NCBI RefSeq assembly: GCF_033472595.1
Contig: NZ_CP137642.1
Location: 1,612,001-1,676,000 of the forward strand
DNA length: 64,000 bases
DNA from: Methanoculleus receptaculi
Lineage (GTDB): Archaea > Halobacteriota > Methanomicrobia > Methanomicrobiales > Methanoculleaceae
Reading direction: 5' to 3'
Below, piece after piece: positions 30,476 through 41,896 of the stretch. The notes under the pieces are model-generated. The model searched no databases and was not told the DNA's origin. It saw nothing but the letters and a program-made list of their open reading frames with translations. Numbering within the stretch: position 1 is the first letter of the stretch; each line of letters starts with the position of its first letter. The translations under genes and the position numbers were made by a program.

Positions 30476-31138
30476 TTACCCGCGGTTCTCCTGCATCCCG
30501 CGTATCGAGAGCCGGATCAGGCCGAGGTTTGCATCCGGTTCTGCAAGTATGCAGAGGTAGAGGTCGTTGTAGGGCGCGATGATGAACTTCCCCCGGGGTG
30601 TCTCGAGGATTACCTGGGAGAGACCGCCCATCTCCATCTCGGCGGTGATCTGGCTTCCGGCACGGAGAAGGTCCTCGGCGACCGCGGCTACCTTCTCAAA
30701 GTCCGCAGAGCCGACCGACTGGAGGGCAAACCCTTCATGAAAGACCGAGACCGCAACGACACCAGGCTGCCGCGCGATCTGCTGGAGGGCAGCCTTCTCG
30801 GGGGAGGGGGGCGCTCTGCCAACCCCGGTGACAAGGCAACCGCTCGCACTCGAGGCTTCCCTGGCCGCCCGCGTCTCTTCGGCGGTATACGCGATAAGTT
30901 CGTAGACCAGCGATGGCCGCTCGAGGAGGTGCCTGTAGGCGTCATCTCCGCCGAGGAGGAGACCCCTGCTTTTATCCTCAAAGGCGGCGGCGTAAGGGCT
31001 CCCGGCCTCGAACAGGACAAAGCCGGTTCCACCACCCTTCTCCGTGATCCGCACCGCCCCGGTGAAATGAGGGCTGATCGATGCAAGGGTTGAGAGCGGC
31101 CCCTGCAGTCTGCCAAGTGAGATGCCGTCGGGGAGCAT
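30476..31138 (-). CDS. Roadblock/LC7-type protein with N-terminal extension
   Basis: Protein of 220 aa. The C-terminal half (about residues 115-215: IARQPGVVAVSVFHEGFALQ through TPRGKFIIAPYNDLYLCIL) has the alternating strand/helix pattern of Roadblock/LC7 domains, which regulate small GTPases or build signalling scaffolds. The N-terminal half has an effector-like strand pattern (FTGAVRITEKGGGTGFVLFE) like domains that sit beside GTPase regulators. It starts 4 nt after the upstream LC7 gene, in the hydrogenase operon. Confidence 0.75.
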   Translation of the reverse strand: MLPDGISLGRLQGPLSTLASISPHFTGAVRITEKGGGTGFVLFEAGSPYAAAFEDKSRGLLLGGDDAYRHLLERPSLVYELIAYTAEETRAAREASSASGCLVTGVGRAPPSPEKAALQQIARQPGVVAVSVFHEGFALQSVGSADFEKVAAVAEDLLRAGSQITAEMEMGGLSQVILETPRGKFIIAPYNDLYLCILAEPDANLGLIRLSIRGMQENRG

Positions 31139-31142
31139 CGTC

Positions 31143-31499
31143 TCACAGAGCGGCTATTATCCGGTCTTTGTTCTTCTTCAGTTCGTAGCGGATTCTCCCG
31201 ACGTTTACGTTCGCGTTCGCCACTATGGCGATCAACTCATCCTCTGAGAGCGGTGAGAGGAGAATCGGGCCGTTCTCAAGCTCGACAAGCATCTGGTGCA
31301 TCTCTCCCTTCCCGAGTTCATTGCTCATCGCCTCGGACGTACCCATGCCTGTCGATGCCATGGCGCCCAGGGCCTCGACATCCACGTCGCCGGCAACAAC
31401 GCTCTCGATCACAAAACCGTCCCGTCCCGCCACAACCGCGGCGGTAACCCCATCAAGTTTAAGGAACTCTCCCAGGATCTGTTTTAACATGCTTTCCAT
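31143..31499 (-). CDS. Roadblock/LC7 domain protein
   Basis: Single-domain Roadblock/LC7 protein of 118 aa: LDGVTAAVVAGRDGFVIES opens the domain, and the strand GPILLSPLSEDELIAIVANA closes it. Such proteins form dimers and act in GTPase-linked signalling, as with MglB. GAGGTGATG is 6 nt before the ATG. It lies 13 nt after the hydrogenase large-subunit stop, so it is co-transcribed with it. Confidence 0.85.
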   Translation of the reverse strand: MESMLKQILGEFLKLDGVTAAVVAGRDGFVIESVVAGDVDVEALGAMASTGMGTSEAMSNELGKGEMHQMLVELENGPILLSPLSEDELIAIVANANVNVGRIRYELKKNKDRIIAAL

Positions 31500-31512
31500 A
31501 CTTTACATCACC

Positions 31513-32880
31513 TCACGCCTTTCTGACTAACTCGATCTTCATGGGCATCCTCCCGATCGCGTGCGTGGCACATGAGATACAGGGGTCGTAGGCCCTTATG
31601 ACCATCTCGATCTGGTTGGCTGCACCATCGCTCAGCGCACCGTTCTTCACAACCCGGCGGGCGACATCCTCCACCCCGCGGTCTATGGCGTAGTTGTTCT
31701 GGCAGGTCGCCACGATCAGGTTGCACCGTTCAATTATTCCGGCATCATTGACGGTGTAGTCGTGGATGAGCGTTCCCCGCGGAGCCTCGATTATACCAAC
31801 ACCGCGCCGGTTCACAACCTCTACTGCGGGTGTCCTGACATCCGTGCCGGTGATGCCGCTATCGGAGAGGAGTTTCACCGCCAGTTCGCACGAGGCGATG
31901 AACTCGACGTAGCGCGCCAGGTTGTAGGCGAGCGCTGCCTGTGAGACTGTTCCGAACCGTTCGCGATACTCCGCAAGCGCAGCGTCTGCATGCTCCGTGC
32001 CCATCTTCTCCACGACGTTCAGCCTGGCAAGCGGCCCGACACGGTAGTTCTCACCGCCCTTGAGGCGGACGAACTTCAGGTATGACCAGTCCTCTGAATA
32101 CTCCTCGATAAATTTTGTGTAATCCGTTCCGGTGAACGACCCGATCCTTCCACCCTCCCCGTTGAGCACCGCAACAGGCCCGTCGTAAGTCGAGTAGACA
32201 CCGTGATTGGTCATCCCCATGAACCCGGTCCTGACGGCGCCGAACTCCGTGTCGACACCATCGAGGAGTGTGTGCGCAATATCCCAGCCTTCAAGGGCGA
32301 TCCTGAGCGCCTCATCCGCCATGGTGGCCAGTTCGGCCCTCTTTGCCGCGGTTAATGGTGCCGACATCCCACCGGGGAGGGCGTTTGAGGGGTGGATGGG
32401 TTTACCGCCGATCGCCTCCGTCAACCGCTGGCCAAACTTCCTGACCGCGATCGCCTTCTTTGCAAGATCGGGTGAGTGGCGGGCGAGGCCGATGACGTTG
32501 CGCGTCTCCGGGGGGCAGTCGTGGCCCAGGAGGAAGTCCGGGGCCGCGAGCATGAAGAAGTGGAGGGAGTGCGAGTGGATGTACTGCCCGATGTTGAGGA
32601 GTTCGCGGAGTTTCTTTCCTGTGGCGGGGGGTTCGACCCCGAAGATCTGGTCGGTGGCCTTTGCCGCCGCAAGGTGGTGCGAGGTTGGGCAGATCCCGCA
32701 AATCCGGGGCGTTATCCTGGGTGCTTCCTCGATTGCAGCCCCGCTGAGGAACTTCTCAAACCCTCTCAGCTCTACGACCTGAAAATGGGCGGAGTCAACG
32801 TCACCGCGGTCGTTGAGGTATATCCTGACGCCTGCATGACCCTCGATCCGGGTCACCGGGTTGATCGCGATCTCTTTCAT
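31513..32880 (-). CDS. [NiFe] hydrogenase large subunit (group 3-like, F420-nonreducing type)
   Basis: Catalytic subunit of 455 aa. Both nickel motifs are complete: RICGICPTSHH (C61, C64) and DPCISCATH (C434, C437, H440). The 15-residue C-terminal tail after H440 is the kind removed by a maturation protease, so the enzyme is expected to be matured normally. Overall it resembles Mvh/Vhu large subunits more than membrane hydrogenases. It overlaps the small-subunit gene by 4 nt. No mvhD, hdr or frhB gene is in the cluster. Confidence 0.92.
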   Translation of the reverse strand: MKEIAINPVTRIEGHAGVRIYLNDRGDVDSAHFQVVELRGFEKFLSGAAIEEAPRITPRICGICPTSHHLAAAKATDQIFGVEPPATGKKLRELLNIGQYIHSHSLHFFMLAAPDFLLGHDCPPETRNVIGLARHSPDLAKKAIAVRKFGQRLTEAIGGKPIHPSNALPGGMSAPLTAAKRAELATMADEALRIALEGWDIAHTLLDGVDTEFGAVRTGFMGMTNHGVYSTYDGPVAVLNGEGGRIGSFTGTDYTKFIEEYSEDWSYLKFVRLKGGENYRVGPLARLNVVEKMGTEHADAALAEYRERFGTVSQAALAYNLARYVEFIASCELAVKLLSDSGITGTDVRTPAVEVVNRRGVGIIEAPRGTLIHDYTVNDAGIIERCNLIVATCQNNYAIDRGVEDVARRVVKNGALSDGAANQIEMVIRAYDPCISCATHAIGRMPMKIELVRKA

Positions 32881-33794
32881 CTGCTCCTCTCCTTTACTAG
32901 GTCACGGATCTTTGAGACCTCTTTGTCCTCCATGATCAGGCTGCCTATGGTGAAGGGGTACATCGTGTGCGCGATGTCGTAGAGTTCTTTCTCCACCTCT
33001 TTCTCGGGCTTATCGGTGAGATCGGAGATCCTCCGCACCATCATGCCATAGATGTCGCGGCAGGGTTCGCGGAGGATGTCCAGAGACGGGCCGTTGCAGC
33101 CGTGGCAGGGGACGTTGTTCTTGGGGCAGGCGGCGCCGCATCTTCCGAAGGTGACGCTCCCGAGACAGAGGTAACCCTGCCCGAGCAGGCAGTGTTCGCG
33201 GTCGGGGACACCCTCATAACGGCGTTTGAGTGTCCAGTTCTCGACCGCGCCCATCTTTCTGTCGCAATCGGCACAGACGGATTTGCGCGAGAGACTGAGT
33301 TTGTCCCCGGAGACCAGCGCGGGGATGATCTGTTTGAGGTAGGTCTCTTTTGGCGGGCAGCCTGTGATGTAGTAGTCGATCTTTGTCAGGTCGCCAACCG
33401 CAAACGCCCGGTAGAGGAAGGGGGGCACATCCGTCGGGATGACCCCGTCGGGTTTCACGGTCTCCACCTCCCGATAGACGTATGAGAAGATCTCATCGTT
33501 TGAGTGCAGCATCGAGAGACCCGATACGCCGCCGTAGCATGCGCAGGTGCCGAGCGCGACCAGGGTCTTTGCCCGTCTCCGGATCTTCTCAAGGCGTTCC
33601 TGGTTTTCAGCGTTGCGGACGGCTCCTGTCACAAACGCGATATCGATGCCCTCCGGGGGTTCCTTGACGTCCATGATCACCGGCGAGTAGACTATATCAG
33701 CCTTATCAACAACGTCGAGCAGCATCTCGTGGAGGTCAAGCACCGCGATCGTGCAGCCTGAACATCCTGCCAGTTCCTCGATAGCAATCTTCAT
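32877..33794 (-). CDS. [NiFe] hydrogenase small subunit (MvhG-like)
   Basis: Electron-transfer subunit of about 305 aa. The proximal-cluster motif is CSGCTIAVLDLHE at about 11-23, with later ligands in TCACYGG and TGCPP, and medial/distal cluster cysteines in VCADCDRK, HCLLGQGYLCLG, RCGAACPKNNVPCHGC. This three-cluster pattern matches MvhG. Of two ATGs, 33794 has GAGG 8 nt upstream. About 45 residues after the last cysteine block are an extra helical tail. Confidence 0.92.
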   Translation of the reverse strand: MKIAIEELAGCSGCTIAVLDLHEMLLDVVDKADIVYSPVIMDVKEPPEGIDIAFVTGAVRNAENQERLEKIRRRAKTLVALGTCACYGGVSGLSMLHSNDEIFSYVYREVETVKPDGVIPTDVPPFLYRAFAVGDLTKIDYYITGCPPKETYLKQIIPALVSGDKLSLSRKSVCADCDRKMGAVENWTLKRRYEGVPDREHCLLGQGYLCLGSVTFGRCGAACPKNNVPCHGCNGPSLDILREPCRDIYGMMVRRISDLTDKPEKEVEKELYDIAHTMYPFTIGSLIMEDKEVSKIRDLVKERSR

Positions 33795-33804
33795 GCTCAT
33801 CGCC

Positions 33805-34368
33805 TCACTTAAGGACCAGTTTCTTCAGGCAGGCGTTCGGGCCGGTGTGGACGATCTCCAGTTTGGCCTTTCTGCCCGTGATCTCCTCGATCGCGCCGAC
33901 AACGTAGCCAAAGAGGGTCTGGCAGAGCGGGCCACCCTGGTCAAGACCGTTGCGCCGGAGCGTCTGGCGGACGATGCAGTCGTGGAAGACGAGGTAGATG
34001 AACGTCTCGCCGTTCTCTTCGATGATGTAGGAGTCTTTATCCTCGGGTTTCCAGACCTCGAAGGAGTACTGCCCCCGGAGCAGGTCGGAGAGCTCGTGGA
34101 GCGCTCCCTCGACGTCATCCCGTTTCTGGAAGTACTGGGCGACCTCGTGGCCGAACTTCTTTCCGGCGCGGTATGTGACGGCGTTTGCCCCCCTGCCCGC
34201 GATCTCTTCGAGTGACCTGATCACGAGCCCGTTGAGTTTCATCAGACCGTGGAGCGTCTGCTCAAGGTCTTTTGGCTTCGGTGAGCATTCCAGAGGGACG
34301 TCCTCGGAACGGTAGACCAGATCCGTCTGGAAGGCCTCGTGCATCTCGTCGACATAGCCTGCGGTCAT
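33805..34368 (-). CDS. V4R-like domain protein in the hydrogenase operon
   Basis: Cytoplasmic protein of 187 aa. The pattern GKKFGHEVAQYF near residue 70, then ETFIYLVFHDCIVRQTL and GPLCQTLFGYVVGAIEEITG with the closing strand AKLEIVHTGPNACLKKLV fits the V4R / 4-vinyl-reductase fold, a small-molecule-binding sensor domain. Cysteines in HDCIV, LCQTL and NACLK could bind a ligand or cluster. It overlaps the ferredoxin gene in TGATG. Confidence 0.7.
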   Translation of the reverse strand: MTAGYVDEMHEAFQTDLVYRSEDVPLECSPKPKDLEQTLHGLMKLNGLVIRSLEEIAGRGANAVTYRAGKKFGHEVAQYFQKRDDVEGALHELSDLLRGQYSFEVWKPEDKDSYIIEENGETFIYLVFHDCIVRQTLRRNGLDQGGPLCQTLFGYVVGAIEEITGRKAKLEIVHTGPNACLKKLVLK

Positions 34369-34610
34369 CAGATCACCTTTTTAAGCATCTCGCATACGTG
34401 GATGTCGATGTAGTGCCGCCTTGCAGCGTAGATCCCGCGGTGCTCAAGCGCCTGAGCCGGGCAGATCTCATGGCAGGAGAGGCACCCCATACAGTTGTTC
34501 GGCCTGACCGCGACACTTACGTTGTCCTGGAGTTCGTACACATGCATGGGGCAGTCTTTTACGCAGAGGCCGCACCCAACGCACGCGTCTTTATCCACAT
34601 ATATCTCCAT
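34368..34610 (-). CDS. 2[4Fe-4S] ferredoxin
   Basis: Two cluster motifs: CVGCGLCVKDCP and CMGCLSCHEICP, in an 80-aa protein starting MEIYVDKDAC. It is the first gene of the hydrogenase operon and could carry electrons from the small subunit. An ATG at 34655, about 22 nt after an AAATTTATC box, would add 15 residues and is a leaderless alternative; GAGG 6 nt before 34610 supports the shorter form. Confidence 0.88.
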   Translation of the reverse strand: MEIYVDKDACVGCGLCVKDCPMHVYELQDNVSVAVRPNNCMGCLSCHEICPAQALEHRGIYAARRHYIDIHVCEMLKKVI

Positions 34611-39915: not shown

Positions 39916-41163
39916 TCACTTTCCATTAGGATGTAGGTGAACTACCACGCGCCTCTCGGGCGTGGCTTCCTGCTTCATCCTCCTCCCCACCGGGAGCGAG
40001 TCCACAGGCTCAACGGTGCGTCCCGCACCTGATACCCCGACAAGATTCTGTTCTTGCAGGGCGAACTTCTTGATATTGATCGCCGCATTGATATCGCGGT
40101 CGTGATGAGTATCACAGACCGGGCAGACCCATTCCCTCTCAGAGAGGGCAAGATCCCGCTCGAGATATCCACAATTATTACATATCTTTGAGGATGGATC
40201 GAACCGCCCGATCTTCAGGAGCGTCTTCCCATACTTTCGACATTTGTAATCCAGCATCGTAAAGAACGTGCTCCACGATACATCTCCAATCCCCTGTGCC
40301 AGACAATGGTTCTTCATCATCCCGCCAACATTCAACGACTCCACTGCAATAGCTTGGTTCTCGCTCACAACTCGAAAAGAGATTTTGTGCAGGAAATCGT
40401 TTCTTTGGTTGGCGACTTTTTCATGGCACCGGGCAAGTTTCCGGATCGCCTTCTCTTGGTTCTTTGACCCCTTCTTCTTCCGTGACACTCGCCTTTGCAA
40501 CACTTTCAACCGCTGGAGGGAGGTCTTCAGGTATCGGGGGTTCTCAATCTTCTCTCCAGTGGAGAAGGTTGCGAAGTCGGTTAAGCCAACATCAATCCCG
40601 ACCGTCGTGTCAGATGTGAACGGTACAGGTTTAGGCTCAGGTTCCTCGTCGTCGACAAGGATGCTGACAAACCATTTTCCCGTCGATGTTACAGACACCG
40701 TGGCATACTTCATCTTCCCAGTGAAGATTCGGTGGAAGACGGTCTTAACCTCACCGATCTTAGGGAATTTGATCGTCCTCTGGTCAAAATTCACATGGTA
40801 ATGTTGTGGTACCTGAAAAGACCGTACAGGGTTCTTCTTTGACTTGAACCGGGGGAATTCCTTCTTCTCCCTGAAGAACCGGGTGAAAGCGTTGTCGAGG
40901 TTCTTGTTTGCACTCTGGAGCGACTGCGAGTTGACTTCCTTGAGCCACGGATATTCTTCCTTGAGGGCAGGAAGACGATTGTTCAAGTCGAAGCAAGAGA
41001 GTTTTTGGCCATCTTGCTCGTATGCTTTGATCTTCTGTTCCAGAGAATGGTTGTACACAAACCGACAGGCATGGATGTGCTTCATGAGGAGCGTGACTTG
41101 CTCTCTTGAAGGATACATCCGATACTTGTAGGCTTGGAGCACAGAAGCAATATTAAGCGTCAT
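39916..41163 (-). CDS. tnpB: RNA-guided endonuclease TnpB
   Basis: IS605-type TnpB of 415 aa, ancestor class of Cas12 nucleases. The RuvC residues are intact: D191 (GIDVG), E275 (VESLN) and D357 (DRDIN). The zinc finger has C328, C331, C347 and C350. The N-terminal YKYRMYPSREQ and bridge region RKKKGSKNQEKA are typical. The C-terminus reads through the right-end hairpin of the element, so the guide RNA region overlaps the coding sequence. Codon usage and GC are lower than the neighbours, consistent with transfer. Confidence 0.93.
   Translation of the reverse strand: MTLNIASVLQAYKYRMYPSREQVTLLMKHIHACRFVYNHSLEQKIKAYEQDGQKLSCFDLNNRLPALKEEYPWLKEVNSQSLQSANKNLDNAFTRFFREKKEFPRFKSKKNPVRSFQVPQHYHVNFDQRTIKFPKIGEVKTVFHRIFTGKMKYATVSVTSTGKWFVSILVDDEEPEPKPVPFTSDTTVGIDVGLTDFATFSTGEKIENPRYLKTSLQRLKVLQRRVSRKKKGSKNQEKAIRKLARCHEKVANQRNDFLHKISFRVVSENQAIAVESLNVGGMMKNHCLAQGIGDVSWSTFFTMLDYKCRKYGKTLLKIGRFDPSSKICNNCGYLERDLALSEREWVCPVCDTHHDRDINAAINIKKFALQEQNLVGVSGAGRTVEPVDSLPVGRRMKQEATPERRVVVHLHPNGK
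39937..40080 (-). ncRNA. Predicted omega-RNA (TnpB guide RNA) region
   Basis: By analogy with other TnpB elements, the omega-RNA covers the 3' end of tnpB and ends at the right end: here GCAGGAAGC, hairpin CCACGCCCGAGAGGCGCGTGG, then TAGTTCAC ending at 39937. The guide would be the bases just beyond, CTACATCCTAATGG on the minus strand. The 5' limit is a guess. Confidence 0.5.
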
Positions 41164-41271: not shown

Positions 41272-41538
41272 CTGCAAGATAAACTATACCTCCGCGATGC
41301 AACGGCGGTCTTTGGCCACGTCTTTGTGGGGTTCCTGTGTCTCTACCTCTACTGCAGGATCCTGAATAGGATCAAGAAAGTGGGAATGACCGCTCATCTC
41401 TCACCGCATGGTCTCCTCCTGAAACTTTCAAAGGTGTATGCAGTGAGGAGCGGGGAGGAGAGAGCGATCACCGAGGTGCCAAAGCAGGTACGGAAGATCG
41501 CAGAGAGGCTTGAACTGAATATATTCCCTAATATATGA
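41272..41538 (+). pseudogene. IS1634-type transposase, C-terminal fragment
   Basis: An 88-residue tail of an IS4-superfamily (IS1634-like) transposase: YLRDATAVFGHVFVGFLCLY, then GLLLKLSKVYAVRSG and ITEVPKQVRKIAERL near the stop. The N-terminal catalytic part is missing; upstream is an IS605 right-end remnant, so insertion or deletion removed it. Confidence 0.75.
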
Positions 41539-41896
41539 GGAGATTGGGCTCCAGATCAGAGAGGAACTGCTCAAAACCGCCGTTAGAGTTGTAGTAATGA
41601 ACAATTGGGCTCATACTTTTGCGTAGAACCAGTTGTCGTTTGGTGTTCGGGAACGCGGATTCAGCATACATCTGAGGGATAAATGAAGGGTAAGCAAAGA
41701 GGGGATAGTAATAGGTAAGAACCCGGCGCTGCAACTGCGAGAATGGATAGATAGAAAACTCATTCAGGTGGATCTTGTCATTGGCAGAATCTCTGGCGAT
41801 CTCAATGATCGCACGTAGAAGAGCAAGTTTGTATGTGGATTGGAGCAGATCATTCTGAATGATCGCCTTTATCTCATGGAAGTATTTAGACTCCAT
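41528..41896 (-). CDS. Low-GC gene fragment, HNH-restriction-like N-terminus
   Basis: A 122-aa protein much lower in GC than its surroundings, rich in Tyr, Ile and Asn. The opening MESKYFHEIKAIIQNDLLQS followed by TYKLALLRAIIEIARDS resembles N-terminal domains of HNH endonuclease-like proteins of mobile DNA, but no nuclease motif remains; the 3' end runs into the transposase fragment, so it is probably truncated. CCATTTATATG about 32 nt upstream gives a promoter. Confidence 0.5.
   Translation of the reverse strand: MESKYFHEIKAIIQNDLLQSTYKLALLRAIIEIARDSANDKIHLNEFSIYPFSQLQRRVLTYYYPLFAYPSFIPQMYAESAFPNTKRQLVLRKSMSPIVHYYNSNGGFEQFLSDLEPNLLIY

Follow-up and report, generated by a model that had tools for sequence, protein, structure and literature searches.

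Introduction

Sensory hydrogenases are already known as a kind of enzyme. HydDB (PMC5037454) recognizes the [NiFe] groups 2b, linked to histidine kinases, and 2c, putatively linked to diguanylate cyclases, as well as the putative sensory [FeFe] groups C1-C3, with C2 labelled 'chemotactic (putative)'. Here we studied a six-gene cluster in a 64,000-nucleotide stretch of the archaeon Methanoculleus receptaculi (NZ_CP137642.1, positions 1,612,001 to 1,676,000; hereafter the window), which encodes a ferredoxin (Fd), a V4R-like protein, the small (S) and large (L) subunits of a [NiFe]-hydrogenase, together with a pair of Roadblock/LC7 proteins (R1 and R2). Groups 2b and 2c resemble the cluster in tying a [NiFe]-hydrogenase to a signal output, but they belong to another hydrogenase group and use other output modules. 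The [FeFe] C2 group would share with the related clusters of Geobacter-type bacteria a proposed H2 input to a chemoreceptor, although C2 is an unrelated [FeFe] enzyme and the cluster encodes a [NiFe] enzyme with V4R-like adaptors.

The closest enzymes in sequence class are the MvhAG/VhuAG hydrogenases (group 3c), linked to heterodisulfide reductase (Hdr), with which our cluster shares its VhuA score range, 12 cysteines in S, the nickel motifs and the C-terminal tail. It differs from them in that no MvhD or HdrC gene adjoins it and V4R-like, Roadblock, MinD, pilus or methyl-accepting chemotaxis protein (MCP) genes are found instead. The catalytic genes of the Methanoculleus marisnigri counterpart, Memar_1007-1008, were named an F420-non-reducing hydrogenase by phylogeny (PMC2686161), and the available text of that paper on them makes no mention of the other four cluster genes. 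Which hydrogenase drives heterodisulfide reduction in Methanomicrobiales without MvhAG is an open question, discussed in PMC2686161, PMC5563889 and PMC3087415. The MglB/MglA polarity modules resemble the cluster in their Roadblock fold, in an MglA-type GTPase gene that lies beside one bacterial locus (L183) and in the link to type IV pili; they differ from it in that no GTPase gene was seen in the archaeal clusters and a hydrogenase is the proposed input. In the literature searched, mostly outside subscription papers, we saw no hydrogenase described as having Roadblock or V4R proteins as partners.

We propose, with a probability of roughly 0.6, that the cluster enzyme is a sensory [NiFe]-hydrogenase of group-3 type in which the state of the V4R-like protein is read by a Roadblock-MinD-pilus system or by CheW/MCP, steering attachment or movement.

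Results

The cluster is conserved beside signal-output genes

All six open reading frames were confirmed as co-directional on the minus strand between window positions 30476 and 34610 (Table 1). From Fd to R2 the junctions measure -1, +4, -4, +13 and +4 nt, so every gap is below 15 nt, as the first-pass annotation of this DNA had described. Its claim that both nickel motifs and the C-terminal tail are present in L was also borne out (RICGIC, DPCISCATH). The nickel cysteines C61 and C64 occur in 27/27 aligned relatives and C434 and C437 in 26, one row being truncated; the 12 cysteines of S, which we take as putative Fe-S ligands, are kept in all 27. L fails the frhA model (190 bits, cut-off 392.5), and the FrhA of this genome is a separate gene that passes it (642 bits).

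Table 1. Genes of the hydrogenase cluster, with positions in the window.
Gene	Position	Strand	Description
Fd	34368..34610	-	80-aa two-[4Fe-4S] ferredoxin, opens the cluster; PF00037/PF12838 (Fer4 found by Pfam)
V4R-like protein	33805..34368	-	187 aa; fold model m368488425a8c; proposed redox/metal switch (C131, C149, C180, H174)
S, [NiFe] small subunit, MvhG/VhuG-like	32877..33800	-	PF01058 (Oxidored_q6); 12 conserved cysteines
L, [NiFe] large subunit	31513..32880	-	PF00374 (NiFeSe_Hases); both nickel motifs, C-terminal tail
R1, single-domain Roadblock/LC7	31143..31499	-	PF03259 (Robl_LC7) 4.8e-17
R2, N-terminal beta-rich domain and C-terminal Roadblock	30476..31138	-	PF03259 3.3e-07

Within the order, L was found at an identity of at least 58% in 72/150 genomes, all from four families (f1-f4); among the genomes sampled from families f5 and f6 there was none. 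We examined 31 hydrogenase loci of the order, one of which (L067) is truncated where its contig ends. The order Fd-V4R-S-L-R1-R2 is kept in all 30 uncut loci, with R1 and R2 lying 1.2 to 1.7 kb apart in L052 and L060 and broken frames in L068; the LC7 and V4R genes thus do stay with the hydrogenase, and their loss from its side would have counted against the first-pass reading. The conserved gene order also led us to reject a chance adjacency of the six genes. In the 21 loci outside the family of this genome, the median identity to the window was highest for R1 (80%), followed by S (78%), the V4R-like protein (77%), Fd (75%, range 66-81%), L (68%) and R2 (43%); the start position of Fd is common to the relatives.

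A MinD-like ATPase gene accompanies 22 of the 30 loci and a PilB-type ATPase gene 17, with at least one of both in 29. The usual MinD-type layout runs HycI protease, PATAN-like protein, TMR (membrane-anchored), MinD, a small membrane coiled-coil protein where detected, and Fd. The HycI maturation protease belongs to the cluster in 11/30 loci, which corrects the earlier view that no maturation gene accompanies it. In the pilus-type layout a prepilin peptidase gene is divergent, and R2 is followed by a protein of ~200 aa, the PilB-type ATPase (T2SSE and PilB3_C above cut-offs in both proteins checked) and T2SSF-like proteins. The names TMR, PATAN-like and coiled-coil protein were assigned by eye; Pfam gave no match for TMR, the 203-aa protein, the coiled-coil protein or the PATAN-like protein of this genome.

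Across the phylum the V4R-like protein was matched in 45/392 genomes, 10 of them outside the order. In four Methanocella-type genomes all six genes are kept in this order, and behind them come two further genes and MinD. A diverged version in family f10 joins Fd-V4R-S-L to a PilB-like ATPase in two loci, with MinD in one, and another in three Archaeoglobus-type loci holds two V4R-like genes, S, Fd, L and a Roadblock gene, again with MinD in one. In one further locus (L115) the V4R-like match has no hydrogenase within its 9 kb. The large subunits of the Archaeoglobus-type loci (L112 5548-6765, L113 5809-6981, L114 6122-7339) stop directly after DPCLSCxxH and so have no cleavable tail; a HycI query had no match in these three loci. 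Beside three Methanocella-type clusters (L106 3041-8637, L108 10240-15751, L109 1877-7583) lies a divergent set with an HdrB-like gene and membrane-complex genes that by eye look NuoH/NuoB-like, perhaps another redox complex.

A wider scan gave 65 loci, among them loci of Geobacteraceae, Pelobacter, Sabulitectum, Eisenbacteria, Chitinispirillaceae and Altiarchaeota; in one Altiarchaeota locus (L134) two Cache-domain proteins precede the cluster. Matches were found in 25/117 genomes of the order of Pelobacter GS8, here called Geobacter-type, and we sampled 20 loci from 19 of these 25 genomes. In 19 of the 20 the genes V4R-S-L-Fd-V4Rb-HycI-MCP stand in a row, with CheW directly upstream in 12/20 and no R1 match in the 19 loci. 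All three MCPs checked have HAMP_2 and MCPsignal domains and no strongly hydrophobic stretch, which by sequence makes them predicted soluble chemoreceptors. The twentieth locus (L278) lies beside a receiver-DUF4388 protein, a Roadblock protein and a histidine kinase, in a genome that also carries an MCP-type locus. In Sabulitectum L183, genes for an MglB-like Roadblock protein, an MglA-type GTPase (Arf above the Pfam cut-off, Ras below) and a DUF4388 protein lie upstream of R1 and V4R; in L186, R1 is accompanied by a DUF4388 protein, by a weak match to Roadblock and, where the contig ends, by an MglA-like fragment, and L187 is a short stretch. Two very large proteins adjoin the MCP-linked hydrogenase in two genomes (L266 995-7607, L265 8993-15570), and the one checked (L266 4620-7607) has Cache, PAS, kinase and receiver domains.

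The hydrogenase is thus genetically linked to Roadblock/MinD/pilus genes in archaea, to CheW/MCP in Geobacter-type bacteria and to a response regulator and histidine kinase in L278. Given this recurring theme of hydrogenase, ferredoxin and V4R-like genes beside a signal output, a sensor is the simplest account.

Relation to the Mvh/Hdr enzymes

The strongest alternative is that the cluster enzyme is metabolic, an F420-non-reducing hydrogenase standing in for MvhAG and supplying electrons to MvhD/HdrABC, its neighbours being incidental or regulating its position. The phylogenetic naming of Memar_1007-1008 (PMC2686161) and the conserved catalytic and cluster cysteines speak for it, and so do the best NCBIfam matches, which are VhuA for L (382 bits, cut-off 800) and VhuG for S (239 bits, cut-off 450). 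Hdr-linked MvhA controls score 496 and 507 (two Methanocella-type), 404 (an Altiarchaeote) and 384 (Archaeoglobaceae), all below the VhuA cut-off, and one control MvhG is likewise under that of VhuG (277 vs 450). Since these controls fail too, the scores put the enzyme in the Mvh-like class without parting it from Mvh, and we dropped the sub-threshold score as an argument against Mvh membership. Moreover, the cluster enzyme is the only Mvh-like one found in this genome, and for that reason it could still feed Hdr.

Queries with HdrA, HdrB, HdrC and MvhD had no match in the window, in agreement with the first-pass annotation, which had seen no Mvh/Hdr partner. In 67 cluster loci MvhD and HdrC were each found 0 times, HdrA twice (ferredoxin-domain hits only) and HdrB in the three Methanocella-type loci mentioned above (36% identity); the five Mvh control loci, three of which supplied queries, gave HdrA in 5/5 and MvhD in 4/5. 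Away from the cluster, genomes of Methanocella type and of Altiarchaeota, Pelobacter and Archaeoglobaceae encode an MvhAG-type enzyme linked to Hdr. In a tree of S and L together, 27 cluster rows are parted from five Mvh rows by a branch with support 100/99. When this tree is rooted on Frh, the Archaeoglobus rows are the first to diverge (85/86), so a single origin of the cluster enzymes does not follow from it. The tree of L alone does not separate cluster from Mvh enzymes, two label changes being needed, and unites the Methanocella MvhA with the methanogen cluster (80/85), which again suits a metabolic enzyme. Both trees leave out L183, L185, L187, L189 and L231, which are fragments or have broken frames, a second FrhA (L210) and the remote L057 and L059; the S and L tree is additionally without L232 and L233. 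The truncated L188 was retained. What makes the metabolic alternative unlikely in our view is the absence of MvhD and HdrC from all 67 loci, the failure to find such an enzyme in the sampled f5 and f6 genomes of the same order, the presence in Methanocella of the cluster enzyme on top of an Hdr-linked Mvh, and signalling genes as neighbours in two domains of life.

The hydrogenase cassette can be absent from the pilus locus

R1 also occurs, at 70-79% identity, in genomes of the sister family f5 that lack such a hydrogenase. We examined 13 of the 23 f5 genomes with R1 at 70% or above. R1, R2, PATAN-like, MinD, the 200-aa-type gene and the prepilin peptidase were present in all 13 loci, PilB in 12 (one contig is cut) and TMR in 12. 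At E 0.05 none of the 13 had a match to S or to the V4R-like protein; the leftover hits were one weak match to L (L294, 0.017, 42 residues) and two of ferredoxin type. Twelve of these loci encode instead a tandem-V4R protein of 370-380 aa (not found in L293, partial in L295), whose two V4R stretches match PF02830 at 3.9e-26 in the one protein checked; it had no match at E 1e-3 in any hydrogenase-bearing locus searched. In a genome of family f2 (L300), an in-frame deletion of ~2.9 kb, by comparison with its relative L066, removed the cassette, fusing the beginning of Fd with the final part of L and retaining R1, R2 and the pilus genes. On an f3 contig (L301), 0.25 kb separates R1 from the prepilin peptidase, and no hydrogenase lies in between. 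Another f2 stretch (L299) has R1, R2, TMR and the PATAN-like gene and no hydrogenase, MinD, pilus ATPase or tandem V4R. In our interpretation, a pilus controller has Fd-V4R-S-L as its removable input cassette.

Together with the Roadblock/MinD/pilus genes in archaea and CheW/MCP in bacteria, the exchange for a V4R-only protein in f5 lends comparative support to the sensor half of the first-pass suggestion of a sensor or a bifurcating enzyme; bifurcation found no support, MvhD and HdrC being absent from the 67 loci. The exchange bears as well on the possibility that the hydrogenase is an effector, placed by Roadblock, MinD and V4R proteins at the cell pole or pilus base to exchange electrons or H2 with a partner. 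The neighbouring genes for MinD and pilus assembly and a ferredoxin within the cluster would suit such a role, which we nevertheless consider improbable, given that in bacteria the neighbours are either CheW/MCP or proteins of kinase and receiver type and that the cassette can be lost, a V4R-only protein in its place, while the pilus locus stays.

Roadblock proteins and the GTPase question

R1 and R2 are Roadblock/LC7 proteins by PF03259, which matches R2 in 30/30 members, and R2 also by fold (VIA Z of 17.2 against an Asgard Roadblock and of about 15 against MglB). The earlier LC7 calls thus stand, with the correction that R2 has an extra N-terminal domain. Most of its VIA matches span residues 107-220 only. 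For this beta-rich domain DUF4388 was matched in 2/30 members and DUF2226 in 2/30, and we are unsure of its kind. That an ordinary soluble hydrogenase uses R1, R2 and V4R for its structure or assembly, with no role of theirs in signalling, as their tight linkage and the better conservation of R1 and V4R than of L might suggest, is very improbable, since R1 and R2 adjoin the pilus locus where the hydrogenase is not encoded and the 19 MCP-type loci gave no R1 match.

The first-pass annotation had looked to a single small GTPase co-occurring with the cluster, and none was found. The candidate of this genome, a small Ras-like protein (L074 1489-2163, genome 647.6-648.2 kb; PF00071 above cut-off), is widespread in the order, with matches at E 1e-15 in 93/150 genomes, many without the hydrogenase and some in f5, and is unmatched in some hydrogenase-bearing genomes (e.g., G001, G007 and G013); we rejected it as a required partner. 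A GTPase link persists in L183 and, as a fragment, in L186, but not as a general partnership. A gene near the L074 GTPase looks HEAT-repeat-like by eye. Two f2 genomes carry a second R1-R2 pair on the opposite strand near the hydrogenase cluster (L046 11099-12636, L051 10934-12087).

The V4R-like protein

By sequence the earlier V4R call failed: none of 15 members, including relatives and paralogues, matched PF02830 at E 0.05, the best Pfam match was PF14196, below its cut-off, and the profile found nothing under E 0.05 among the sequences of solved structures. By fold it was recovered. Foldseek searches with the model (pLDDT 73.6, moderate confidence) gave matches from 3.8e-05 (DmpR), to the sensor domains of PoxR, MopR and DmpR, to MJ1460, H-NOX and Bet3/TRAPP, and VIA gave Z 10.2 to PoxR, Bet3 and MJ1460 (about 10 overall). 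DmpR, MopR and PoxR are phenol sensors and MJ1460 is a V4R protein; we take V4R, H-NOX, Bet3/TRAPP and PoxR-type domains to be one superfamily. The predicted fold places the cluster protein in this V4R / H-NOX / TRAPP-like superfamily. C131, R134, C149 and C180 are invariant in 15/15 rows, including bacteria and paralogues, and H174 is kept in 12/12 core rows and not in the three paralogues; the protein probably holds a cysteine-rich metal or redox site.

Arrangement in the M. receptaculi genome

In this genome, a single contig of 1.98 Mb, the cluster-associated parts are divided over three places. A stretch at 598-601 kb holds HycI (598 kb), the PATAN-like gene, TMR and MinD, another at 73-81 kb holds the pilus genes, and the hydrogenase and Roadblock genes are in the window. 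One insertion sequence (IS) fragment is present directly after MinD (~601 kb) and 6.7 kb upstream of Fd, the copies sharing 97-98% identity, so it is plausible that the split stems from rearrangement via IS copies. The fragment occupies window positions 41278-41555, with further copies at 601 and 607 kb of the genome, and TnpB-like genes at window 39916-41163 and L117 6057-7265 agree over ~100 residues when compared by eye. A MinD-like gene at 388.6 kb was rejected as the partner, being 59% identical to the operon MinD, against 88% for the copy at 600 kb. It lies in L116 8736-11366 (genome 386.7-389.4 kb) as a second MinD-like ATPase beside a third Roadblock protein and, by eye, a CheY-like regulator, possibly a parallel module.

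Discussion

Our reading of the cluster is that of a sensory hydrogenase. H2 oxidized at L would yield electrons that pass via the clusters of S to ferredoxin and the V4R-like protein, whose redox or metal state would be the signal. In archaea R1 and R2, presumably in a physical complex with these proteins, would read that state and relay it to the MinD-like ATPase and the PilB-type type IV pilus machine; in Geobacter-type bacteria the V4R-like signal would go to the CheW/MCP complex. In both, H2 or redox state would steer attachment or movement.

Several observations weigh against this reading. The NCBIfam score does not separate L (382) from Hdr-linked MvhA (384-507), nor does the tree of L alone part the two kinds of enzyme; no other Mvh-like enzyme was found in this genome, and an HdrB-like gene lies near three clusters. 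MinD is missing in 8/30 loci and PilB in 13/30, both are missing in L037, a locus from the nearest relative of this genome, and in M. receptaculi itself the hydrogenase and pilus genes are far apart. Sabulitectum L184, L185 and L189, over the 8 to 9 kb upstream, gave no match to the signalling genes of L183. R1 occurs without the hydrogenase. The V4R assignment comes from a modelled fold and not from sequence, and when the profile of the V4R-like family is compared with the tandem V4R the match is weak (probability 6.7%, nominal E 0.0055), so that their kinship is a fold-level claim. Lastly, gene neighbourhood is no proof of signalling.

A broader proposal, to which we give slightly less than an even chance, is that of a sensory [NiFe] class spanning both domains, in which the removable Fd-V4R-hydrogenase cassette would be the input port of the methanogen Roadblock-MinD-pilus controller and of the Geobacter-type MCP/CheW receptor. 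The V4R protein would then be an interchangeable adaptor, with or without a hydrogenase, and cells would sense H2 and move to, or hold, H2-producing partners.

The finding bears on which hydrogenase drives heterodisulfide reduction in Methanomicrobiales without MvhAG, and the relatives that keep the pilus locus without the cassette are natural controls. If the sensory reading is true, the hydrogenase would report the H2 level to the cell instead of feeding it, and partners that exchange H2, such as methanogens and Geobacter-type bacteria, may use a dedicated enzyme to sense the currency that they share.

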